DNA from: Sulfuritalea hydrogenivorans sk43H
GTDB taxonomy: Bacteria > Pseudomonadota > Gammaproteobacteria > Burkholderiales > Rhodocyclaceae
Reading direction: 5' to 3'
NCBI RefSeq assembly: GCF_000828635.1
Contig: NZ_AP012547.1
Span: 806,001-870,000 of the forward strand
DNA: 64,000 nt
Position numbers and translations under genes: made by a program. Positions 9,040 through 63,362 of the stretch are shown one piece after another (position 1 is the stretch's first letter; each line of letters opens with the position of its first letter). Under the pieces are notes generated by a model that worked only from the letters and a program-made list of their open reading frames with translations, was not told the DNA's origin and ran no database searches.

Positions 9040-9043
9040 AAAA

Positions 9044-9069
9044 GTCGGCGCTGGCGGAACGGCGAATTT
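9044..9069 (+). repeat. Dispersed repeat A between alaS and res
   Basis: GTCGGCGCTGGCG, then GA, then ACGGCGAATTT. It fills the whole gap between two converging genes and reaches the res stop codon. Confidence 0.6.
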
Positions 9070-27056: not shown

Positions 27057-27071
27057 TTCTGGCGGAAAATC

Positions 27072-27180
27072 TTACCGCAGAGGCGCAGAGGATTCGCAGA
27101 GAAAACCAGATGCGAACAATTTGCCGTAGTTGCTTCCCTCTGCGCTGCCTTTCTCTGCGTCTCTGCGCCTCCGCGGTGAA
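27072..27180. repeat. Empty inverted-repeat element (ACCGCAGAGGCGCAGAG family)
   Basis: Left arm 27072-27101 begins TTACCGCAGAGGCGCAGAGG; right arm 27138-27180 ends TCTCTGCGCCTCCGCGGTGAA, the reverse complement with small differences. Only about 36 unrelated bases lie between. The same arms flank the GxxExxY gene at 28171-28650. It occupies most of the 200-base gap between amiC and ribF. Confidence 0.85.
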
Positions 27181-27256
27181 GCCTTCATGCCTTGTGGTTC
27201 AGGTCGCACCGGCCTAGCTTGATATAATCGCCCGCTTTCCCTGCTGCCTCAACCCC

Positions 27257-28201
27257 ATGCTGGTTTTTCGCGGTGTTCCCGAGCGGGCGACGACGTCCAC
27301 GGTACTGACCATCGGCAATTTCGATGGCGTGCATCGTGGCCATCGCGCGCTGCTCGCTGAATTGACAGCCAAGGCACGCGAACTCGCGCTGCCGGCGACG
27401 GTGCTCACCTTCGAACCGCATCCGCGCGAACTGTTCGCGCCGGACCAGGCGCCGGCGCGCCTGGCCAGTCTGCGCGACAAGTTCGAACTGCTGGCCGAAT
27501 GCGGCGTCGATCGGGTTCATGTCTGCCGCTTCACGCGCCAACTGGCGGCGCTCACCGCCACGGAGTTCATCGAGAACATCCTGGTGCGGGGCTTGTCGGT
27601 GCGGCATCTGATCATCGGCGACGACTTTCGTTTCGGCAAGGGACGCGGCGGCGACTTCGCCATGCTGCAGCAGGCCGGTCACGAGCATCGCTTTGCGGTC
27701 GAGGCCATGCATACGGTGGATTTCGGCGGTGTCCGCGTCTCCAGCTCCGCCGTGCGCGAAGCCCTGGCGGCGGGCGACATCGAGCGTGCCGAGCAACTGC
27801 TGGGCCGAGCTTTCGTCATTGCCGGGCGCGTCATGGATGGCAGGAAGCTCGGTCGCACCATCGGCTTCCCCACTGCCAACATCCAGGTGCGGCGCAAGCG
27901 CCTGCCCTTGTCCGGCGTGTTCGCCGTCACTGTCTCCGGCGTCGATTCGAAGCCGCTGCCCGGCGCGGCCAACATCGGCGTGCGCCCGACGGTGGACGAA
28001 GGCCTCAAGCCGGTGCTGGAAGTCCATCTGCTGGATTTCGATCGCGACATCTATGGCACGCACGTCGATGTGAACTTCCTCCACAAGCTGCGCGACGAAG
28101 CGAAATTCGATTCCCTCGACGCGCTCAAGGCGCAGATCGCCCGCGATGTAGCCGACGTGAAGGGATTTTTTTACCGCAGAGGCGCAGAGGCGCAGAGATG
28201 A
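27257..28201 (+). CDS. ribF: Bifunctional riboflavin kinase/FAD synthetase
   Basis: 314 aa. Converts riboflavin to FMN and then FAD. FAD synthetase domain: VLTIGNFDGVHRGHRALL (nucleotidyltransferase HxGH-like), LTFEPHPRELF, IIGDDFRFGKGRGGD, SSSAVREALAAGD. Kinase domain: RVMDGRKLGRTIGFPTANI, GAANIGVRPTVDEG, EVHLLDFDRDIYG. The last nine residues (YRRGAEAQR) are encoded by the left arm of the adjoining inverted repeat, which also supplies the stop codon; the TGA overlaps the ATG of the next gene. Confidence 0.96.
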   Translation: MLVFRGVPERATTSTVLTIGNFDGVHRGHRALLAELTAKARELALPATVLTFEPHPRELFAPDQAPARLASLRDKFELLAECGVDRVHVCRFTRQLAALTATEFIENILVRGLSVRHLIIGDDFRFGKGRGGDFAMLQQAGHEHRFAVEAMHTVDFGGVRVSSSAVREALAAGDIERAEQLLGRAFVIAGRVMDGRKLGRTIGFPTANIQVRRKRLPLSGVFAVTVSGVDSKPLPGAANIGVRPTVDEGLKPVLEVHLLDFDRDIYGTHVDVNFLHKLRDEAKFDSLDALKAQIARDVADVKGFFYRRGAEAQR

Positions 28202-28650
28202 CGCAGAGAAAGGCCATTGCGGAGACTGATTTCAACGATCTGAGTGGACGCGTCATTGGGGCAGCCATCGAGGTGCATCGTCAGGTGGGGCCGGGTTTAC
28301 TCGAATCGGCGTATGTGGAGTGCCTTGGATGGGAGCTTGAGCAGTCCGGACTCAGTGTCAAACGCGAGGTGATTGTGCCCTTGCGCTACAAGAAGTTGAC
28401 ACTTGCGCAATCCTATCGACTGGACTTGCTGATTGATGATTGTTTGATTGTTGAAGTGAAGGCGGTTGAAAAGTTGATGCCGATCCATGACGCCCAGTTA
28501 CTGACCTATCTCAGGCTGATGGACAAACGACTTGGCCTGCTTATGAATTTCAATGTTGATGCGATGCGCAACGGCATCAAAAGGCTGGCAAATGGACTTT
28601 GACCTGTATTCCTCTGCGTTTCCTCTGCGCCTCTGCGCCTCTGCGGTGAG
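28171..28650 (+). mobile_element. Inverted-repeat cassette carrying a GxxExxY gene
   Basis: Left arm 28171-28210 (TTACCGCAGAGGCGCAGAGG, then CGCAGAG units) and right arm 28611-28650 (CCTCTGCG units, ending CCTCTGCGGTGAG) are inverted copies built from CGCAGAG repeats. Between them lies one gene, 28198-28602, whose start codon lies inside the left arm. No transposase and no clear target-site duplication. Its mobility is inferred from the symmetrical ends, the empty relative at 27072-27180 and its intrusion into a conserved ribF-ileS pair. Confidence 0.65.
28198..28602 (+). CDS. GxxExxY protein (PD-(D/E)XK-like fold)
   Basis: 134 aa. Contains GPGLLESAYVECL, the GxxExxY signature, preceded by GRVIGAAIEVHRQVG. 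Nuclease-like core: KREVIVPLRYKKLTLAQSYRLD, LLIDDCLIVEVKAVEKLMPIH (D and ExK), then QLLTYLRLMDKRLGLLMNFN. The family is related to PD-(D/E)XK nucleases; activity is not established to my knowledge. Its ATG overlaps the ribF TGA and its first codons (TQRK) come from the repeat. AT content is higher than in the neighbours and codon use is atypical, consistent with transfer. Confidence 0.88.
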   Translation: MTQRKAIAETDFNDLSGRVIGAAIEVHRQVGPGLLESAYVECLGWELEQSGLSVKREVIVPLRYKKLTLAQSYRLDLLIDDCLIVEVKAVEKLMPIHDAQLLTYLRLMDKRLGLLMNFNVDAMRNGIKRLANGL

Positions 28651-28659
28651 ATTTTAGAC

Positions 28660-31458
28660 ATGGCTGACTATCGCAAGACCCTCAACATGCCCGACACGCC
28701 CTTCCCGATGCGCGGCGATCTCGCCAAGCGCGAGCCGGGATGGATCGCCGCGTGGCAGCAGCAGCGGCTCTACTGGAAAATCCGCGACGCGGCCAAGGGG
28801 CGTCCGCGCTTCGTGCTGCACGACGGCCCGCCTTATGCCAACGGCGACATCCACATCGGCCATGCGGTGAACAAGATCCTCAAGGACATCATCGTCCGTT
28901 CCAAGACCCTGGCCGGCTTCGACGCGCCCTACGTGCCGGGCTGGGACTGCCATGGCCTGCCGATCGAGCACCAGATCGAAAAGACCCACGGCAAGCACCT
29001 GCCGGCCGACCAGGCGCGCGAGCTGTGCCGCAGTTTTGCCGCAGAGCAGGTGGAGCGGCAGAAGAAGGATTTCATTCGCCTCGGCGTGCTCGGCGACTGG
29101 GACAATCCCTACCTGACCATGGCCTTCCGCAATGAAGCGGACGAGATTCGCGCGGTCGGCGACCTGTACAAGACCGGCTACCTGTTCAAGGGCCTGAAGC
29201 CGGTGAATTGGTGCTTCGATTGCGGCTCGGCATTGGCCGAAGCCGAGGTCGAATACCAGGACAAGAAGTCGCCGGCGATCGACGTCGGTTTCAAGCTCGA
29301 CGCCGCCGAACGCGGCCGCGTCGCCCATGCCTTCGGTATCGCCGCGCTGCCTGACGGGGATTGTTGGACGGTGATCTGGACCACCACGCCATGGACCATC
29401 CCGTCCAACCAGGCGCTCAACATGCACCCGGAATTCACCTACGAACTGGTGAAGACGGCGCGCGGCTGCCTGATCCTCGCCGCCGAGTTGCGCGGCGCCG
29501 CACTGCAGCGCTTCGGCCTCGAAGGCGAGGTGCTCGGCGCCTGCCAGGGCGCGGCGCTGGCCCAGGTGGTGTTCCGCCACCCCTTCTACGACCGCGCCTC
29601 GCCGGTATACCTGGGCGACTACGTCACGCTCGACACCGGCACCGGCATCGTCCATAGCGCGCCGGCCTATGGCCTGGAGGACTACGATTCCTGCAAGAAG
29701 CACGGCATGCAGAACGACGAGATCCTGACCCCGGTGCAAGGCGACGGCGTGTTCGCCGCCAGCCTGCCCTTCTTCGGCGGCATGTTCGTCTGGAAGGCCA
29801 ACGCGGCCATCATCGAAAAGCTGGCCGAGGTCGGCAGCCTGTTCGGCAGCGCGGAGATCACCCACAGCTACATGCACTGCTGGCGGCACAAGACGCCGAT
29901 TATTTATCGAGCGACCACCCAGTGGTTTGTGGGAATGAATCGCATCCCGGCGGAAGGCGGCGGCACGCTGCGCGATAAGGCGCTGGCGGCTGTCGAAGCC
30001 ACTACCTTCTATCCCGACTGGGGCAAGGCACGGCTGCACGCGATGATCGCCAACCGGCCCGACTGGTGCGTCTCGCGCCAGCGCAACTGGGGTGTGCCGA
30101 TCCCCTTCTTCCTGCACAAGGAAACGGGCGAGCCGCACCCGCGCACGCTGGAGCTGCTCGAAGCCGTCGCGCGGAAGATCGAGCAGGAGGGCATTGACGC
30201 CTGGTTCAAGCTCGATGCCGCCGAACTGCTCGGCGCCGATGCCGCGAACTACGACAAGATGAAGGACACGCTCGACGTCTGGTTCGATTCCGGCACCACG
30301 CACCGCACCGTGCTGCGCGGCTCGCACGCGGCGGAGTCGACCTACCCGGCCGATCTCTACCTCGAAGGCTCGGACCAGCATCGCGGCTGGTTCCATTCCA
30401 GCCTGCTCACCGGTGCCGCCATCGACGGCCGCGCGCCCTACAAGGCGCTGCTGACCCACGGCTTCGTGGTCGACGGCAAGGGCATGAAGATGTCCAAGTC
30501 GAAGGGCAACGTCGTCGCGCCGCAGAAAATCTCCGACACGCTGGGCGCCGAAATCCTGCGTCTCTGGGTGGCCAGCACCGACTACTCGGGCGAACTGTCG
30601 ATCGACGAGAAGACCATCCTGCCGCGCGTGGTCGAGGTCTATCGCCGGCTGCGCAACACGCTGCGCTTCCTGCTCGCCAACACCGCGGACTTCGACGCGA
30701 AGAATCAAATGCTGCCGCCCGCCGAATGGCTCGAAGTGGATCGCTACGCGCTGGCGCTGACGCGCCGCCTGCAGACGCAATGCGCTGCCGACTACGAGCG
30801 CTTCGAGTTCCACAAGGTGGTACAGGCACTGATGAACTTCTGCTCCGAGGATCTCGGTGCCTTCTACCTCGACATCCTCAAGGACCGGCTGTACACCGCG
30901 GCGGAGAATTCCCGCGCGCGCCGTTCGGCGCAAAGCGCGCTGTGGCACATCCTGCAAACCGTGACGCGGCTGATGGCGCCGGTGCTGTCCTTCACCGCCG
31001 AGGAAATCTGGACCACGCTGAAGCAGGGCGACAGCGTCATGCTGGCGACGTGGCACGAGCTGCCCGCTCAAGCTGAAGAGTCGGCGCTGGCGACACGGTG
31101 GCAAACCCTGCGCAGCGTTCGCGCCGAGGTTTCACGGGTGCTGGAAGACGTGCGCAGCACCGGCGGCATCGGTTCCTCGCTGCAGGCCGAGGTGAGTTTG
31201 CGCGTCGACGCCGAAACCCATGAGCTGCTGGCTTCGCTGGGAGAGGACCTCAAGTTCGTTCTCATTTGCTCGAAAGTGGACCTGCAAAAAGTCGGCGCCG
31301 GCGACACGGTGATCGAAGCCGTTCCCAGCCCCCACGCCAAGTGCGGCCGCTGCTGGCACTGGCGCGAGGATGTCGGTAGCAACGCCGAGCACCCCGAACT
31401 CTGCGGACGCTGCGTGAGCAATCTCCACGGCGCCGGCGAGGCGCGCGAGTTTGCCTAA
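28660..31458 (+). CDS. ileS: Isoleucyl-tRNA synthetase
   Basis: 932 aa class I synthetase. HIGH motif [21 protein letters not shown] motif [10 protein letters not shown], editing domain with [14 protein letters not shown] and [21 protein letters not shown]1 [15 protein letters not shown], anticodon-binding domain, and a C-terminal zinc finger (AKCGRCWHW, later LCGRCVSNL). Two copies of repeat A occur in the C-terminal region (EESALATRW and [10 protein letters not shown]). Starts 9 bases after the right arm of the GxxExxY cassette; overlaps lspA by 8 nt. Confidence 0.98.
31080..31103 (+). repeat. Dispersed repeat A, first copy in ileS
   Basis: GTCGGCGCTGGCG, AC, ACGGTGGCA; in frame as ESALATRW. 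Confidence 0.5.
31291..31315 (+). repeat. Dispersed repeat A, second copy in ileS
   Basis: GTCGGCGCCGGCG, AC, ACGGTGATC; in frame as VGAGDTVIE, a different frame from the copy 211 bases upstream. Confidence 0.45.
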
Positions 31459-33453: not shown

Positions 33454-33894
33454 ATGACTATCCCGCATAAGCAGATTCAGCGCGGCTTCACCATCATAGA
33501 ACTGGTCGTGGTTATCGTGATTCTCGGCATCATGGCGGTGGTAGTACTGCCGCGGATGGATTCGCTGGGAGGCTTTGAAGCGGCAGGATTTCGCGACCAG
33601 ACTGTTGCGATTCTGCGCTTCGCTCAGAAGTCGGCTCTGGCGCAACGGCGGGCGGTATGCGTTTCAGTGGGAGCGACAGGCGTGACTCTCACCATCGATA
33701 CCACGACACCGCCGAATGATTCCTGCGATGCCGCTTTGGTTCCGCCCTTCACGCCGCGAGCAGGCAGCGGGCTGGCGGGAAGTGGTTTCAGCTTTCTGCG
33801 CATGGGCCAGACCAATCAGGGCAGTGACATTACCCTCACCATTGCAGGAGCCGATCCCGTCAGGATCGATGCGGTGACCGGCTATGTACGCTAG
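33454..33894 (+). CDS. Prepilin-like protein, GspH/FimT/MshC type
   Basis: 146 aa. Type IV prepilin N-terminus: basic leader MTIPHKQIQRG, cleavage before FTIIELVVVIVILGIMAVVVLP (E5 present). Then FAQKSALAQRRAVCVSVGATG, typical of the GspH/FimT/MshC minor pilins that sit at the pilus tip. It begins 152 bases after ispH. First of four prepilin genes, with 11-base overlap to the next. Membrane-anchored before assembly. Confidence 0.88.
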   Translation: MTIPHKQIQRGFTIIELVVVIVILGIMAVVVLPRMDSLGGFEAAGFRDQTVAILRFAQKSALAQRRAVCVSVGATGVTLTIDTTTPPNDSCDAALVPPFTPRAGSGLAGSGFSFLRMGQTNQGSDITLTIAGADPVRIDAVTGYVR

Positions 33895-34360
33895 CCGGTT
33901 CGGGCGTAAATTGCACCGAGGATTCACCCTGATCGAGCTGATCGTGTTCATCGTCATCGTCAGTGTCGGATTGGCCGGTATATTGATGTCGCTGAATGTG
34001 TCGGTGAGGAGTAGTGCCGATCCGCTGCAGCCAAAGCAGGCTCTGGCGATTGCCGAAGCGATGCTGGAGGAGGTTCTTCTGAAACCCTATGTTCCGGTGA
34101 GCGGTTACGTCGCATCCTGTCCGACAACCTGCGATCGCCCTCAATTCGACGATATAGACGACTATGCAAATTATGGCCCCGTGACCGCGACGTCGATTGA
34201 CGGTTTGATAACTCTGGCGGGTTACACCGTGCAGGTGCGAGTTCCCGTTGCAACGGTCGCTATTGGTACCGTTCCAATGAAGCAGATCACGGTTACGGTG
34301 GTCCCGCCGAGCGGCGCCGGACATGCCATCTCGCTGACCGGCTATCGGGCGGACTACTGA
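33884..34360 (+). CDS. mshD: Prepilin-like protein, MshD type
   Basis: 158 aa. Leader MYASRFGRKLHRG, then FTLIELIVFIVIVSVGLAGILMSLNVSVRSS; this IVFIVIVSVGLAGIL helix and the following SADPLQPKQALAIAEAMLEE are characteristic of MshD-like minor pilins. A C-rich loop (SCPTTC) may form a disulfide. Overlaps its neighbours by 11 and 1 nt. Confidence 0.85.
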   Translation: MYASRFGRKLHRGFTLIELIVFIVIVSVGLAGILMSLNVSVRSSADPLQPKQALAIAEAMLEEVLLKPYVPVSGYVASCPTTCDRPQFDDIDDYANYGPVTATSIDGLITLAGYTVQVRVPVATVAIGTVPMKQITVTVVPPSGAGHAISLTGYRADY

Positions 34361-35160
34361 TGACAAGGCAGGGTGGCTTCACGCTGGTCGAGATGGTCAT
34401 GGCCATCGTCATCACCGGGATTGTCGCCGGGATTGTCGCGGTATTCATTGCCAAACCGGTTGAGGGCTACGTTTCCACTGCGCGCCGGGCCGGCATGACC
34501 GATGTTGCCGACCTTGCCTTGAAGCGCATGGCGCTGGACATTCGCACCGCGGTGCCCAACACCGTGCGCATAGCCGGTGCGGGAAGATTTCTGGAGTTCA
34601 TCCCCGCTCGCACGGGAGGGCGCTATTGCACCGATAGCGACAGCGGCTGCAATCCGCTCGATTTTGCCACCGCCGATCTCAGCTTTGACGTTCTGGGCGA
34701 GGCGCACGACGCCGCGGAAAACGAGTTTCTTGTGATTTACAACACCGGCCAGACCGGCCTCAACGCCTATCTCGCCACGGACAACAGACGAACCATCGCA
34801 GCGGGAACCACCACCACCGCGATCACTTTCGCGGGCACGTCGTTTCCATTCGCCTCGCCCTCCAGTCGCTTCCAAGTGGTGCCGGTGACAGGCCCGGTTA
34901 CCTACGCATGCGAGGGCGTCGGCGGCGCGGCGACGGGTACCGGAAGCCTGCGACGCTATACCGGCTACGGATTCAACGGCACGCAGCCTACAACGGGCTT
35001 GGGAACCGGGGCGCTGCTGGCTGACAATCTGACCGGCTGTATCTTCACCTATGGCGCGGTATCGGCAACCAACGGCATGGTCAGCTTGCAACTTACAGTC
35101 ACTCGTGAAAACGAGTCGATATCCCTTTTCCATCAGATCCATGTCGACAACGCGCCCTGA
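34360..35160 (+). CDS. mshO: Prepilin-like protein, MshO type
   Basis: 266 aa. Short leader MTRQGG, FTLVEMVMAIVITGIVAGIVAVFI helix, then VEGYVSTARRAGMTDVADLALKRMALDIRTAVPNTVRI, as in MshO/PilW-like minor pilins. Long beta-rich C-terminal domain with two cysteine pairs likely in disulfides (YCTDSDSGC, TYACEGV with TGCIF). Ends 20 bases inside mshP. Confidence 0.85.
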   Translation: MTRQGGFTLVEMVMAIVITGIVAGIVAVFIAKPVEGYVSTARRAGMTDVADLALKRMALDIRTAVPNTVRIAGAGRFLEFIPARTGGRYCTDSDSGCNPLDFATADLSFDVLGEAHDAAENEFLVIYNTGQTGLNAYLATDNRRTIAAGTTTTAITFAGTSFPFASPSSRFQVVPVTGPVTYACEGVGGAATGTGSLRRYTGYGFNGTQPTTGLGTGALLADNLTGCIFTYGAVSATNGMVSLQLTVTRENESISLFHQIHVDNAP

Positions 35161-35560
35161 TCGCCGCTCCGGCGGCTTCGCCATTGTCTCGGCCATTTTC
35201 ATTCTGGTCGTGCTGGCCGGGCTGGCGGCGTTCGTGGTTTCCGTGACCTCGACGCAGCATGTGACCTTCGCCCAGGATGTACAAAGTGCGCGCGCCTATC
35301 AGGCGGCGCGTGCCGGCACGGAATGGGGAATCCAACGCTGGCTGGCGGCGACGCCGTCCGTGACATGTTCGGGCGCCACCCTGAGCTTTGCCGATCCCGA
35401 TCTGTCCGGCTTCCAGACCGTGGTGACGGCCAGCACGACGACGGGGGGCGGGGTCAATTTTTGCGTCATCACCGCCACGGCGACGCCCACGGGCGCCAGC
35501 CCCGGCGCTCTCGGCTACGTCGAGCGCCAACTCAGAGTCGTGGTCGAGGGCAATCCCTGA
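35141..35560 (+). CDS. mshP: MshP-like protein (PilX-type)
   Basis: 139 aa. Starts MSTTRPDRRSGGFAIVSAIFILVVLAGLAAFVVSVTST with a prepilin-like hydrophobic segment lacking the classical E5, then ARAYQAARAGTEWGIQRWLA, as in MshP/PilX proteins. Last of the prepilin genes. The convergent mshQ-like adhesin gene ends 41 bases downstream, with a copy of repeat A in the gap. Confidence 0.85.
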   Translation: MSTTRPDRRSGGFAIVSAIFILVVLAGLAAFVVSVTSTQHVTFAQDVQSARAYQAARAGTEWGIQRWLAATPSVTCSGATLSFADPDLSGFQTVVTASTTTGGGVNFCVITATATPTGASPGALGYVERQLRVVVEGNP

Positions 35561-35565
35561 CGTTT

Positions 35566-35585
35566 GCCGTACCGCCAGCGCCGAC
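35566..35585 (-). repeat. Dispersed repeat A between mshP and mshQ
   Basis: The minus strand reads GTCGGCGCTGGCG, GT, ACGGC, preceded by AAAA. It lies in the 41-base gap between converging genes, like the copy at 9044. Confidence 0.6.
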
Positions 35586-35601
35586 TTTTCCCGCCGTCTG
35601 C

Positions 35602-38600
35602 TTAGCGGGTTTCCCTGCGGTAGATGATTCGCTTTGAGTTGCCGCCCTGGCTGTAGATGCCGAAGCTGGCGCGTGCCGAGGGCGTGGTCACCGCGTTGAA
35701 CTGCAGGTAGGCGGGAATCGGGCCGAAGGGGACATCGGTGAAGCCCTTGGCGGAAGGTGCCGTCAGGCAGAGGCCAAGGTTTCCGTTGGCAACCGGGTTT
35801 GCCGAATTGCAGGCGAATCCGCTGGCTGCGGTGCAGGTGCTGGTCAGCACTCCGCAACGCGGCGTGGTGCTGCCCGACGGGGTTAGCGTCAGGGCCGCCG
35901 ACGGTCCGACCAGGGCGGCAAAGGTCGTGCAGTTGTCGGTCGCACTGGGAAGCCATTTGCTTCCGTCATAGTATTCGAGCAGCGCCGGCATGTTCAGCGA
36001 CAGTTGTTCGGCGCCGAAGGCGTTGGACAGGCGCAGGCGGCCGAAGCGTGCGCTGACGGGTGCCCCCACCTTCACGGCGGTGCAGGGCGGCGTAGTCGTG
36101 CAGTCGCTGCTGGTGGCGGCATCCATGTCCAGCCCGCCAAGCACCGGGCCGTCGGGATCGGTGAGCGCGATGCCGAGTTGCAGGCTGTCATAGGGGCCAT
36201 CCGGCGTGGTTGCTGCCACACGGTTGAAGGTGGCGGTGCTCGAATTCACCGTGTAGCTGCCTTTGTTCCAGGTGCTGCTGGCGTTGACCAGGCGTGCGGT
36301 GAGATTGGTGCCACTGTTGGCATTTTCGGCTTGCCACGCGACTGTCGCCGGTGCATAGCCCCCTCCCGAAGGATGATAGTTCTCGGTGGTACCGCCGGCA
36401 AAATTCTGCGCCAGCAGGGTTGCCGCCAAGGCGAACGGCTGGCCCATGTAGCTCAGCACTGCGCCGCTGGCTGTACAGGCTGGCATCCGCGAGCCGCTCG
36501 ACAGCGAAAAGTGGTCCGGCACGAAGCGCCCGACATCCACCGTGCCGGATGTAATGTAGCGCTCGCTGTTGGTGGAATCCAATGCGTCGACGGCCGCAAA
36601 CGTGGTGTCGATAAGTTGCATTTTGAAGGCGCCGACCTCGGCGTAGCTTGCTGTCGTCGAGGTGACTATGCCATCGCCGGCGGTGCCATCTTCGAAAGTA
36701 CCGCCGTTCAGGGTGCAGGCCGTGCCATTGAGGCAGGTACTGGGGATGATGTGCGATGCGATGCTTGCGGTCGGCGAGCCGGCGTAGTTGGTGGCAATTG
36801 CCGGGGTGCCGGCGCCGTTCCAGGCGGTGGCGGTGATGGTGAACGGTCTTCCGGCCTTGTGCTTTGTTCCGCCGGGGGTCGAGACATTATTCAGCGTGCG
36901 GGTGGTGCCGGCCGTTTCCCAGTCGCCGTCGGTTACCGTGAAGCTAAGCGAGTTGGGCCGGATGGCGTACTTGTCCGTGGAGCACTTGACGACGGTGGGT
37001 GAGGTCGTCGGATAACTGATGCGGACGCTGACGTCCATATAGGCGTTTGCCACGGCGCTGAAGGTGAGGCTGGCGCGACCGGTGGCCAGCGCCACCGGCG
37101 ACATGGTGGCGAGCACCGTCGGGGTGGTAAGGCAATTGAGGGTGGGAACCACCTCTACCTTAACGTTGCCGGTGAAAGTTGTCATGATTTGCGGTGTCGG
37201 GGAGCTGTTCAGTGCGACCACGCACAACGGATAGGTGGTTCCGGCGATTTTGGTCTTGATCGGCCCGGAATTGGTGGCTACCGGCAGCGTTGCGCAGGTG
37301 GTTGGCGATACGGGCGGCTCGAAGGCGTTGAAGCCGCCGGGAGTAATGCAGCTATGCAACACCTGAGCCGGCGTGGTCGAGGTCAGCGTGTAATCGGTGG
37401 GGCAGGTCGAGGTCAGTACCACCGTGCCGGTCAGGGTGTTCACTACGACATTGGTTGCCAGCGTGATGTTTGGATTCGTCGCATTGGTCACATCCAGGGT
37501 GCGCAGAGTGACCGGACTGGTTCCGCTGATCGTCTGCGCGGCGGTGCCGTTCAGCGTCACCGTCGAGGTGCCCGGCGTGAGCGTGCCGTTGCTGGTGAAG
37601 TTGCCGCCGACGATGACATTCCCTGAACCTAATGTCATGGTTTCGCCCGCCGCGTTGTTCAAGTGACCGACGATGGACAACGTGCCGGACGAAATGGTGG
37701 TGGTTGCCAGGATGGCGCCGTTGCTGTTGTTCAGCGCGGCACCTCCATTGGTGATGGTCAGGATGCCGGCGCCGATGCTCAGGGTGTCGCCGTTGTTGAT
37801 GCCCCCGGTACCGGTGAGTGTGACCCGGCTTCCCGTGCCGAGCGATACCGTGGAAGACCCTGCGACTGTCGACGCAATGTTCAACGTGCCGCCGATATTG
37901 ATGCCGTTGCCGAGAGCGGTGGCGCCGGTGACGGTCAGCAAGGCATCGCGGTTGGCGTTGCTGCCGCCGGTCAGGTCGACGTTCCCGGTTACGGTGATGC
38001 GTCCGGTGGTGACGCTGACGGTGGCGTCCCCGGTATTGGCGGTCGCCGCAGCCGCCGTCACGCTCAAAGTGCCGCCGACGGTGATGACGCCGGTGGTGAG
38101 CGTCATTTGCTTGAGCCCGTTGGTGCCGGAATCCACCACGGCATTGCCGGCGATGGCCAGCGTTCCCGAGGTCACGCTGGTGGTCGCGGCAAGTCCGGTC
38201 GTGTTGGTGGTGGTCAGCGTGGCGGCGGCGTTGGTGACACTGACAAGGCCGATACCGACCGTCAGGGTATCGCCATTGTTTATCCCGCCCGCGCCGCTGA
38301 CCGTGATGCGGCCGGTGGCGTTGGTGGACGACACCGTCGCCGATCCGGCGATAGTCGGCGCAACGATATTCAGCGTGCCGCCGATGTTGATTCCCTGACC
38401 GGCGGCGCCCGCGCCGGTGACGGTCAGCAGGGCGTCGCGGTTGGCTGTCGTGCCTCCGGTCACGGTGGTGTTGCCGGCCACGGTGAGGCGTCCGGTGGTG
38501 ACGCTGACGGTGGCATCGCCGGCATCGGCGGTCGCCGCTGCCGCGGTCACGCTCAGAGTGCCGCCGACGGTGATGACACCGGTGGTGAGCGACATAGTCT

Positions 38601-39420
38601 TGAGTCCGGTCGTGCCGGAATCCACCACGGCGTTGCCGGCGATGGCCAGCGTTCCGGAGGTCACCCGGGTGGTCACGGCGATTCCGGTTGCAAGAGTATG
38701 GGTTGTAGTCAGCGTGGCGGCAGGATTTGTGACATTGAATGTCCCGGCATCAACGTACAGGGCATCCCCGTTGGCAACGCCTGCGGCCCCGGCCACGTTG
38801 ATTCTTCCGGCCGCGTTGGTAATGGAAACCGTGGACGAGGTGGCCACGGTGGCATTGATGGTCAGTCCGCCGTTGATGGTGACGAGTCCTGTGCTGACCG
38901 TGAGCAGTGCATCCCGGGCCGCGGCGGAACCGCCGGTAAGTGTCACGTTGCCGCCGACAGTGAGCGTGCCGGCGCCGACGTTGATCTGTTTGGTTACCGC
39001 ACCGGTCGGAATGCTGATGGTGACGTTGTTGGTGACGTTGAGGCTGGAGGTGGCAGCGGCAAACGTCAGCCCTGTAGCGTTGGCACCGGTATCGATCGTG
39101 ACCGAGTTGGCTGTCCGGGCGGCGCCGGACTCAACGGCGATGGAGATGCCGTTGCAAATCGTGACGTCATCGCCCGCGGTCGGGAACGTGGTCGCGCCGG
39201 CGGCGGCGCAACTCGTCGAACTCCAGTTGCCATTGACTCCCCAGTTGCCGCTCGTCCTCGCATATTTGGCTGCGGCCATTGCGTCCCCGCTCCATGTTCC
39301 CAGGGCGGACAGCGACAGCGCTAAAACGACAATTCTGGCGAATCCGTTGAGGAGTCGTACCGATGTCGGTGATGGCTGGCGGGGGGCCGCTTTACTATGG
39401 CGCAAGGCAAATAATTTCAA
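35602..39420 (-). CDS. mshQ: MshQ-like repetitive surface/pilus-associated protein
   Basis: About 1272 aa from the proposed TTG start at 39420 (GGACGA upstream); the frame stays open to 39645 but would run into tRNA-Thr. Signal peptide (FARIVVLALSLSALGTWSGDAMA). The N-terminal half is a Gly/Thr/Val-rich beta-repeat region with three about 160-aa units. The C-terminal half matches the MshQ/DUF6701 type (YAIRPNSLSFTVTDGDWET, GRFVPDHFSLSSG, RFGRLRLSNAFGAEQL, ending FGIYSQGGNSKRIIYRRE). In Vibrio and Shewanella mshQ follows mshP on the same strand; here it is inverted. Probably an exported pilus-tip or surface adhesin. Confidence 0.82.
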   Translation of the reverse strand: MKLFALRHSKAAPRQPSPTSVRLLNGFARIVVLALSLSALGTWSGDAMAAAKYARTSGNWGVNGNWSSTSCAAAGATTFPTAGDDVTICNGISIAVESGAARTANSVTIDTGANATGLTFAAATSSLNVTNNVTISIPTGAVTKQINVGAGTLTVGGNVTLTGGSAAARDALLTVSTGLVTINGGLTINATVATSSTVSITNAAGRINVAGAAGVANGDALYVDAGTFNVTNPAATLTTTHTLATGIAVTTRVTSGTLAIAGNAVVDSGTTGLKTMSLTTGVITVGGTLSVTAAAATADAGDATVSVTTGRLTVAGNTTVTGGTTANRDALLTVTGAGAAGQGINIGGTLNIVAPTIAGSATVSSTNATGRITVSGAGGINNGDTLTVGIGLVSVTNAAATLTTTNTTGLAATTSVTSGTLAIAGNAVVDSGTNGLKQMTLTTGVITVGGTLSVTAAAATANTGDATVSVTTGRITVTGNVDLTGGSNANRDALLTVTGATALGNGINIGGTLNIASTVAGSSTVSLGTGSRVTLTGTGGINNGDTLSIGAGILTITNGGAALNNSNGAILATTTISSGTLSIVGHLNNAAGETMTLGSGNVIVGGNFTSNGTLTPGTSTVTLNGTAAQTISGTSPVTLRTLDVTNATNPNITLATNVVVNTLTGTVVLTSTCPTDYTLTSTTPAQVLHSCITPGGFNAFEPPVSPTTCATLPVATNSGPIKTKIAGTTYPLCVVALNSSPTPQIMTTFTGNVKVEVVPTLNCLTTPTVLATMSPVALATGRASLTFSAVANAYMDVSVRISYPTTSPTVVKCSTDKYAIRPNSLSFTVTDGDWETAGTTRTLNNVSTPGGTKHKAGRPFTITATAWNGAGTPAIATNYAGSPTASIASHIIPSTCLNGTACTLNGGTFEDGTAGDGIVTSTTASYAEVGAFKMQLIDTTFAAVDALDSTNSERYITSGTVDVGRFVPDHFSLSSGSRMPACTASGAVLSYMGQPFALAATLLAQNFAGGTTENYHPSGGGYAPATVAWQAENANSGTNLTARLVNASSTWNKGSYTVNSSTATFNRVAATTPDGPYDSLQLGIALTDPDGPVLGGLDMDAATSSDCTTTPPCTAVKVGAPVSARFGRLRLSNAFGAEQLSLNMPALLEYYDGSKWLPSATDNCTTFAALVGPSAALTLTPSGSTTPRCGVLTSTCTAASGFACNSANPVANGNLGLCLTAPSAKGFTDVPFGPIPAYLQFNAVTTPSARASFGIYSQGGNSKRIIYRRETR
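37640..38990 (-). repeat. Three tandem units of about 480-490 bp inside mshQ
   Basis: Each unit encodes a TVxGN...TGG...RDALLTV start, a GINIGGTLNI or GGLTINATV strand, GINNGDTL or GVANGDAL, and a GTLAIAGNAVVDSG / GVITVGGTLSVTAAAATA end. Matching bases recur at 37671, 38151 and 38640, so the period is 480-489 bp. The third (C-terminal) unit is the most diverged. Confidence 0.8.
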
Positions 39421-58951: not shown

Positions 58952-59659
58952 GTGCCTGACGGCGGTTTCCTCGCGGTATTCCTGATCGGCCTGCTCGGCG
59001 GCGTGCATTGCGCCGGCATGTGCGGCGGCATCGTGTCGGCGCTGAGCCTGCAGATGCCGCGCTCCGCAGCAAAGCCGGTCTCGACCTTGCCGCTTCACCT
59101 GGCCTACAACCTCGGCCGCATCTCCAGCTATGCAGTCGCCGGCGCCTTGATGGGCGCAGTCGGCAGCCTCGGGTTGCTGCTCGACAACTGGCTGCCGGTC
59201 CAGATGATCCTGTATGTCGGCGCCAATATGATGATGGTGGCGCTCGGCCTCTACCTCACCGGATTGACGCAGACCCTGGCCTTTGTCGAGCGTGCCGGCC
59301 AACGGCTATGGCGGCGGGTGCAACCTTCGACCAGGCGCTTCCTTCCGGTGCGCGGCGTGGCCCAGGCTTTTCCGCTCGGCATGCTGTGGGGCTGGCTGCC
59401 TTGCGGATTGGTGTATAGCGTCCTGACGATGACGCTGCTGTCGGGCAGTGCCGCAAAGGGCGCCACCATCATGCTGGTGTTCGGACTCGGCACGCTGCCC
59501 AATCTGCTGCTTGCCGGCCTGCTGCTGGTGCGCTTTCGCAGCGCCATTCAGGGACGTGCGCTGCGTCTGGTTTCGGGCTTGATCGTTCTTTCTTTCGGCG
59601 TGTGGGGCCTGTTCAATGCCGCGGCGCTGGGTGGCAGGTTGTGGCAGGGAGTGGTCTGA
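58952..59659 (+). CDS. TauE/SafE-family (COG2836-like) membrane protein
   Basis: 235 aa with about six helices. FLIGLLGGVHCAGMCGGIVSAL carries a CxxxC-type HCAGMCGG metal motif; AYNLGRISSYAVAGALMGAVG, PLGMLWGWLPCGLVYSVL, LVFGLGTLPNLLLAG. The family is annotated as sulfite exporter but members beside cbb3/ccoI and hemN genes are suspected metal or heme-related assembly factors. GTG start at 58952. Ten bases after hemN, so co-transcribed. Confidence 0.85.
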   Translation: MPDGGFLAVFLIGLLGGVHCAGMCGGIVSALSLQMPRSAAKPVSTLPLHLAYNLGRISSYAVAGALMGAVGSLGLLLDNWLPVQMILYVGANMMMVALGLYLTGLTQTLAFVERAGQRLWRRVQPSTRRFLPVRGVAQAFPLGMLWGWLPCGLVYSVLTMTLLSGSAAKGATIMLVFGLGTLPNLLLAGLLLVRFRSAIQGRALRLVSGLIVLSFGVWGLFNAAALGGRLWQGVV

Positions 59660-59681
59660 GTCGGCGCTGGCGCTACGGCGA
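59660..59681 (+). repeat. Dispersed repeat A after the SafE-family gene
   Basis: GTCGGCGCTGGCG, CT, ACGGCGA. Begins at the last base of the SafE-family stop codon and is followed 20-30 bases later by two copies of repeat B. Confidence 0.6.
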
Positions 59682-60218: not shown

Positions 60219-62456
<2,238 letters not shown>

Positions 62457-62460
62457 TGAC

Positions 62461-62667
62461 ATGGAAACGACGACAATCAAGGTGGACGGCATGTCCTGCG
62501 GCGGCTGCGTGAAAAGCGTGACTGGTGTGTTGACCGCGCTCGACGGCGTGGCGAAAGCCGAGGTTTCGCTGGAGCAGAAACAGGCGGTGGTCGAGTTCGA
62601 CGCGGCGAAAGTGACGCGCGACCAGCTCAAGGCCGTGATCGAAGACGCGGGTTTCGACGCCGCCTGA
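62461..62667 (+). CDS. copZ: Copper chaperone, heavy-metal-associated domain
   Basis: 68 aa. IKVDGMSCGGCVKSVTGVLTAL (CxxC metal site), VAKAEVSLEQKQAVVEFD, LKAVIEDAGFDAA. A single HMA domain, cytoplasmic, likely delivers Cu(I) to CopA. Starts 4 bases after copA. Confidence 0.94.
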   Translation: METTTIKVDGMSCGGCVKSVTGVLTALDGVAKAEVSLEQKQAVVEFDAAKVTRDQLKAVIEDAGFDAA

Positions 62668-62687
62668 GACGATCGGGAATATCAAGA

Positions 62688-62726
62688 GTCGGCGCTGGCG
62701 ATACGGCGATTGCCGTATCGCCAGCG
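62688..62726 (+). repeat. Repeat A hairpin after copZ
   Basis: Repeat A (62688-62711) followed at once by its inverse: CGCTGGCGATACGGC (62693-62707), loop GATT, then the exact reverse complement (62712-62726). A perfect 15-bp stem, 20 bases after copZ; it could act as a terminator although no T-run follows. Confidence 0.8.
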
Positions 62727-62733
62727 GCCCGCG

Positions 62734-62775
62734 TCACTCTTCGAGCAGGCTGCGCAACATCCACGCGGTCTTGTA
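62734..62775 (-). pseudogene. Remnant of the 3' end of a second dps
   Basis: The minus strand encodes KTAWMLRSLLEE and a stop, identical in protein to the end of dps at 62865-62900. The nucleotide differences within these 12 codons are synonymous, which points to an old paralogue that has been lost. The stretch 62776-62864 holds only short GC-rich hairpins (GACCTGC with GCAGGTC). Confidence 0.65.
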
Positions 62776-62864
62776 GTTTCGGCCGCCGCTTCGCGGCTTG
62801 ACCTGCAGACTGCGCAGGTCAGCCTTCACTGAAAGACCGCCGCGCCGTAGATGCTTCCACGCGG

Positions 62865-63362
62865 TCATTCTTCCAACAGGCTGCGCAGCATCCAGGCGGT
62901 CTTTTCATGCACCTCGATGCGCTGCGTCAGCAAATCGGCCGAGGGCTGGTCGTTGGCCTTTTCCACCAGCGGGAACAGCTTGCGCGCGGTGCGCGCCGTG
63001 GCTTCCTGCGCGGCGACGAGGTGGCGCACCATGTCCAGCGCCTTCGGTTGGCCGTCGACTTCCTTGATGGTGGCCAGCTTGACGAACTCCTTGTAGGTGC
63101 CGGGCGCGGGGTGGCCCAAGGCGCGGATGCGTTCGGCGATCAGGTCGAGCGCGTTCCACTGCTCGGTGTATTGGCCCATGAACATCAGGTGCAGGGTGTT
63201 GAACATCGGTCCGGTGACGTTCCAGTGGAAGTTGTGCGTCATCTGGTAGAGCGTGTAGCTGTCGGCCAGCAGGCCGGAGAGGCCTTGCGCGATGGCGGCG
63301 CGGTCCTTGTCGGCAATGCCGATGTCGAGTTTGGCGACTTTGACGGGCTTCTTCGTTTTCAT
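62865..63362 (-). CDS. dps: Dps-like ferritin (DNA-binding protein from starved cells)
   Basis: 165 aa. Ferroxidase-site pattern at the dimer interface: LADSYTLYQMTHNFHWNVTGPMF (two H, W), LHLMFMGQYTEQWNALDLIAERIRALGH (D, E). Lysine-rich N-terminus (KTKKPVKVAKLD) for DNA binding. Stores iron and protects DNA from peroxide. Start at 63362 has GGAGGA upstream. An FNR-type site lies about 74 bases before the start. Next to ahpF, another peroxide-defence gene. Confidence 0.94.
   Translation of the reverse strand: MKTKKPVKVAKLDIGIADKDRAAIAQGLSGLLADSYTLYQMTHNFHWNVTGPMFNTLHLMFMGQYTEQWNALDLIAERIRALGHPAPGTYKEFVKLATIKEVDGQPKALDMVRHLVAAQEATARTARKLFPLVEKANDQPSADLLTQRIEVHEKTAWMLRSLLEE

Follow-up and report, generated by a model that had tools for sequence, protein, structure and literature searches.

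A candidate DNA-uptake-type repeat of Sulfuritalea and related Rhodocyclaceae, and the hairpin that one copy forms between copZ and dps

Introduction

A perfect hairpin lies between a copZ-like and a dps-like gene of Sulfuritalea hydrogenivorans sk43H, and one of its arms belongs to a short repeat, here called Repeat A, that recurs throughout the chromosome. What kind of repeat is this, and is the hairpin a working part of the two gene ends? REP/BIME elements are dispersed and extragenic and form hairpins at gene ends, and the initial annotation of this DNA called the repeat 'uptake-type or REP'. For sequence-specific DNA uptake, passages of the reports cited here name two families, Pasteurellaceae and Neisseriaceae (PMC7811141, PMC5031613). 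We analyzed the window, the whole 64,000-nucleotide stretch that contains the hairpin, together with the complete genome (G000) and those of its relatives.

Results

The copZ/dps gap contains a perfect 15-bp hairpin

A perfect 15-bp hairpin with a GATT loop had been annotated downstream of copZ, and a stem search bears this out: the arms at 62693–62707 and 62712–62726 enclose GATT, as read from the sequence and found again by script. The parts of the locus are as follows.

62461..62667, + strand: copZ-like ORF of 68 aa, upstream, named by sequence motif and position
62687..62708, + strand: complete copy of Repeat A, AGTCGGCGCTGGCGATACGGCG, with 0 mismatches to the 22-nt core
62693..62707, + strand: left arm of the stem, 15 bp, inside the complete copy
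62708..62711, + strand: loop GATT, read from the sequence
62712..62726, − strand: right arm of the stem, a partial inverse copy of Repeat A by sequence match
62865..63362, − strand: convergent dps-like ORF, named from its sequence

The copZ stop lies ~20 bp before the full copy and the hairpin, and the next gene, which we take from its sequence to be dps-like, is convergent. Transcribed from either side, the hairpin would form the same strong stem-loop. There is no U tract after it on the copZ strand, and a terminator scan of the window did not call it.

The initial annotation saw here one copy joined with its inverse. The left arm does lie within a complete copy, but the inverse arm matches only the right-hand ~17 nt of Repeat A, lacks the AGTCGG end and differs from the full 22-nt core at 6 positions. 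The annotated end (62726) is the end of the stem, but the annotated start (62688) is not where the stem begins (62693) and falls one base inside the full copy (62687–62708). Intergenic copies near 9044, 35566 and 59660 had also been placed at gene ends, and their ORF context agrees, with positions relative to ORF calls as listed.

9043..9064, + strand: Repeat A copy between convergent ORFs
35565..35586, − strand: Repeat A copy between convergent ORFs
59659..59680, + strand: Repeat A copy overlapping the end of the upstream ORF

Just past the hairpin, 62733–62772 is a partial duplicate of the dps 3′ end at 62864–62903 (88% over 40 nt). In the relatives G027, G004 and G019 the dps stop directly follows the hairpin, so a segment of ~130 bp was gained or displaced at the copZ/dps gap of G000.

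Repeat A is abundant in one clade and has lineage-specific dialects

The core of Repeat A, AGTCGGCGCTGGCGNNACGGCG, occurs 683 times at ≤2 mismatches in the single contig of 3,802,648 bases that makes up the genome, 343 times forward and 340 times reverse, which amounts to about 180 copies per Mb over 3.80 Mb; the reversed pattern, our control, has 0 matches in the whole 3.80-Mb genome. A position table of 96 copies gives the consensus RARAGTCGGCGCTGGCGRYACGGCGAYY. The extended motif spans ~26 bp, opens with R-A-R-A and leaves a centre of two bases free.

Among 150 genomes searched (our own and relatives), all 31 of the same genus carry Repeat A, with 46–732 copies each. Other genera of the family also have it (G037, 725 copies; G067, 705; G075, 244; G048, 200; G052, 40; G074, 31); beyond the genus and the first five of these, the counts among the 150 genomes are 0–31. 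Within the family most of the other genera have 0–8, and in the 60 genomes of the order that belong to different families the count never exceeds 5. Database records that are named and contain the exact motif come mostly from Sulfuritalea, Rhodocyclaceae and Rhodocyclales. At least 120 viral-contig stretches also contain an exact copy; further copies number 0.047 per kb in viral contigs (among the matches listed) vs. 0.122 per kb in chromosomal contigs, and, since every contig in either set was picked for containing a copy, the lower viral density counts as a weak indication.

Small samples reveal dialects that share a skeleton: AGTCGACGCTGG in G074, AGTCAGTCC in G039, AGTTGG in G043 and an ending in ACGGCA in G048. 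A de novo word scan of 40–60 kb each found no comparable repeat in the non-carriers G063, G071, G073, G086 and G089. The non-carrier genus G034 (stretches L241–L243) has a dense repeat of its own, with CTCCCACAGCAAGCTCCCACAGCAAG words in 10–11 copies in 60 kb. We found no published description of Repeat A in the open-licence literature on uptake sequences in Rhodocyclales or Betaproteobacteria.

Copies lie mostly in genes, and intergenic copies crowd at gene ends

Placement was studied in a sample made up of the window and 40 further 20-kb stretches (864 kb of 3,802,648 bases, 22.7%), which contains 172 copies at ≤3 mismatches; its ORFs come from a simple home-made caller that overlooked at least one L209 pilin ORF. 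ORFs contain 116 of the 172 copies (68 sense, 48 antisense), and 51 of the 68 sense copies share one reading frame. The 56 intergenic copies compare with about 13% non-coding bases in the sample, and 27 of them lie ≤25 bp from a gene 3′ end (10% of random intergenic placements) and 35 lie ≤60 bp away (20% of random placements). Convergent gaps, which make up 10.6% of intergenic bases, hold 19 of the 56.

Gene-end copies favour neither strand (24 same, 22 opposite), intragenic copies in the 864-kb sample have no clear bias to gene ends, and the number of copies per 20 kb is near Poisson (mean 3.80, variance 4.16). A strand-polar (KOPS/Chi-like) motif was considered and rejected: genome totals are 343/340, and there is no evident regional strand excess in the 864-kb sample.

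The origin of a copy could be followed at a site in ileS.

31079..31100, + strand: Repeat A copy in ileS, site 1 of the substitution test

No gap interrupts the protein alignment at this site in 28 of 30 genomes. A Repeat A copy is present here in nine genomes (≤3 mismatches) and its dialect in G039 (4 mismatches); in the rest, ordinary codons differ from Repeat A at 7–12 positions. Thus, the motif was made here by substitution, codon for codon, a mode of origin demonstrated at this one site. A wider comparison was mixed: in 21 cases just one side had a copy, and of these 5 were ungapped and 16 had gaps nearby, of which several are insertions of a second element, Repeat B, into the copy or poor alignments. 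In ileS of G075 (L300), a palindromic insert, TCCCCAAAGGGGACTTCCTTTGGGG, splits the site-1 copy in frame; it behaves like Repeat B but is a different element in another genus.

Repeat B is often flanked by halves of Repeat A

Repeat B is a 36-nt hairpin element (core CTGGGATTCCGCTTCGCGGGCAGG) with 32 copies in G000; it is present in 29 of the 31 genus genomes and in none of the 60 others that were searched. Of 41 copies examined in the genus, 21 are preceded by the left half of Repeat A and followed by ACGGCG, which places them in the exact centre of a Repeat A copy; 43 of 20,000 random positions also pass this test. At around 61584 in copA, Repeat B splits a Repeat A copy at its centre, in frame, in G000, and three relatives have the intact Repeat A. 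Copies of Repeat B were noted at the following places in the window.

61570–61610: Repeat B copy in copA
2134, 6301, 59692 and 59728: further Repeat B copies

Some Repeat B copies are in tandem. Separately, 27066–28655 of the window holds several copies of a third repeat, with CGCAGAGGCGCAGAGG units in both orientations.

Paired copies are rare and recur at conserved places

The initial annotation also held that such repeats often form paired hairpins. In the 864-kb sample pairing is instead the exception: stems of ≥12 bp between a copy and its 3′ flank involve 5 of the 172 copies at 3 loci, namely copZ/dps, L144 19149–19197 and L148 1777–1826, all of them intergenic, +− and convergent. No stem of ≥12 bp was found on the 5′ side of the 172 copies, and shuffled 3′ flanks gave 0.0 stems on average (20 rounds). 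The sample thus holds 2 complete inverted pairs and the copZ half pair. Across the genus, an exact-core hairpin pattern matches 18 places in 16 of the 31 genomes, vs. 7 places for the reversed control; many of the places are a full copy with a degenerate half, and the tails after paired-copy hairpins are weak.

The annotation had counted an absence of other inverted pairs against its reading; others do exist, and at conserved places. The copZ/dps hairpin recurs at the same place in G027, G004, G019 and G030, the L144 hairpin in G004 and G010, and the L148 hairpin in G008, G003 and G019. Across five species, 93% of the cells of the copZ stem are paired (5 of 75 unpaired), and 3 of its 15 pairs have changed on both sides, a value reached in 13 of 500 shuffles. 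With moderate confidence, this alignment suggests that the copZ stem itself has been kept, although template-switch correction could yield the same pattern.

Discussion

Repeat A has close parallels, by analogy, with the known uptake sequences. As described in the relevant sections of PMC3630211, the DUS of Neisseriaceae resembles it in being abundant, both intra- and intergenic, divided into lineage dialects and, at a few places in the case of Repeat A, present as inverted pairs at gene ends. The DUS differs in being a 10–12-bp motif of another sequence, where Repeat A has ~26 bp and a free two-base centre, and in forming inverted pairs 'in high numbers', where pairs of Repeat A are rare. The USS of Pasteurellaceae, in excerpts of three reports (PMC12616744, PMC1852404, PMC7811141), occurs at 31–913 copies per Mb, a range similar to the density of Repeat A (about 180 per Mb), and shares with it an A-rich start of the extended motif and the placing of +− pairs between convergent genes. 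According to part of another report (PMC2346458), both also prefer one reading frame. However, USS and Repeat A have no common core sequence, and the 17% of H. influenzae USS that one of these excerpts places ≤30 bp from another (PMC7811141) contrasts with 4 of 172 copies of Repeat A. Pyrimidines follow the stem of USS hairpins, and about 55% of high-confidence terminators in Neisseria contain the uptake motif, as stated in a section of PMC1852404. Since the extended motif of Repeat A opens with R-A-R-A, its +− pairs likewise place pyrimidines after the stem, the A-rich opening of the motif falling outside it.

On balance, we think it probable that Repeat A is a DNA-uptake-type sequence that evolved in a clade of Rhodocyclaceae, and that the hairpin is a copy with an inverse partner that has been kept as a 3′-end element. 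The competence machinery would prefer the ~26-bp motif, and copies arising by point mutation would be spread and kept through recombination with self DNA. Its evolution would have been separate from that of the uptake sequences in Neisseriaceae (DUS) and Pasteurellaceae (USS). The hairpin at 62693–62726 would be one of a small number of sites, at convergent gene ends, at which a copy acquired an inverse partner, and its transcribed stem-loop may have been kept as a bidirectional 3′-end element, either an RNA-stabilizing or a pausing stem; complete pairs perhaps act as a weak terminator.

Could Repeat A instead be the binding site of an intracellular protein, serving nucleoid organization, segregation or global regulation and having nothing to do with uptake? 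The motif is long and highly conserved, its two conserved blocks are about one helical turn apart, and its copies cover the whole chromosome on both strands, as such a site might. Chromosomal sites of intracellular proteins are, however, usually far fewer or strand-polar, and Repeat A lies mostly in ORFs, where 51 of 68 sense copies keep to one frame, has no evident regional strand excess and is patchily present among genera; we consider this explanation unlikely. A mobile palindromic or REP/MITE-type element would also be dispersed, and some copies of Repeat A do pair as hairpins at gene ends, as REP/BIME elements do. Unlike those elements, Repeat A is mostly in ORFs (116 of 172 copies) and is not itself palindromic. 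Because most copies are intragenic and the one in ileS stands in place of ordinary codons, with no gap in 28 of 30 genomes, we reject this reading as largely refuted and scarcely credible. Of the annotated pair 'uptake-type or REP', then, copy number, intragenic positions, use of both strands, dialects, substitution and gene-end crowding speak for the uptake-type half, and the REP half is dropped.

The hairpin raises alternatives of its own. It may be a neutral by-product, in which template switching or quasi-palindrome correction made the half copy and selection played no part. In complete pairs the two arms agree even at the free centre and, in L148, share a mismatch, which is what template switching would produce; the copZ right arm is only partial, and exact-core hairpins are found at only 18 places genus-wide against 7 for the control. 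Yet the three loci keep their hairpins in several species with changed centres, and all three hairpins of G000 are in convergent gaps, which leaves neutral origin a possible but somewhat doubtful account. An ordinary Rho-independent terminator with an incidental likeness to the repeat would suit a site where two convergent genes end. That is very improbable, given that the copZ strand has no U tract, that the terminator scan made no call and that the left arm belongs, without mismatch, to a family of 683 copies. For a hairpin kept as a 3′-end element, the missing U tract on the copZ side favours stabilizing of the 3′ end or pausing, perhaps following Rho-dependent termination, over intrinsic termination of the classical kind.

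A bolder proposal, on which we are evenly divided, is that a Sulfuritalea-centred clade of Rhodocyclaceae has a third independent sequence-specific uptake system, with a long bipartite tag whose dialects differ between genera, co-option of the tag as conserved hairpins at a few convergent gene ends, and parasitism by the genus-specific Repeat B, which inserts at the exact centre of the tag. If true, a third case in free-living Rhodocyclaceae would offer an independent test of how tag and receptor evolve outside mucosal pathogens. The hairpins would then represent first steps in the co-option of uptake tags at gene ends, at a lower frequency than in the DUS and USS systems, and a family with carrier, dialect and motif-free genera would be a natural experiment for finding the receptor.

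Two gene markers for carriers were tried and rejected. Matches to ComP_DUS (PF16732) do not discriminate, occurring in 135 of 150 genomes with or without the repeat and missing from the dialect carrier G074. G000 has a match to ComEC (PF03772), as do 91 of the 101 genomes in that search, carriers and non-carriers alike. Because both families occur irrespective of the repeat, gene content neither proves nor excludes uptake. Listing and reading the pilin-like loci of G000 singled out no receptor among them. One such locus is in the window, where a cluster of pilin-like ORFs with the N-methylation motif (33454–35560) is followed by a large convergent repeat-containing ORF (35602–39279). The cluster presumably resembles an MSHA-type minor pilin operon, and two copies of Repeat A lie in or beside it.
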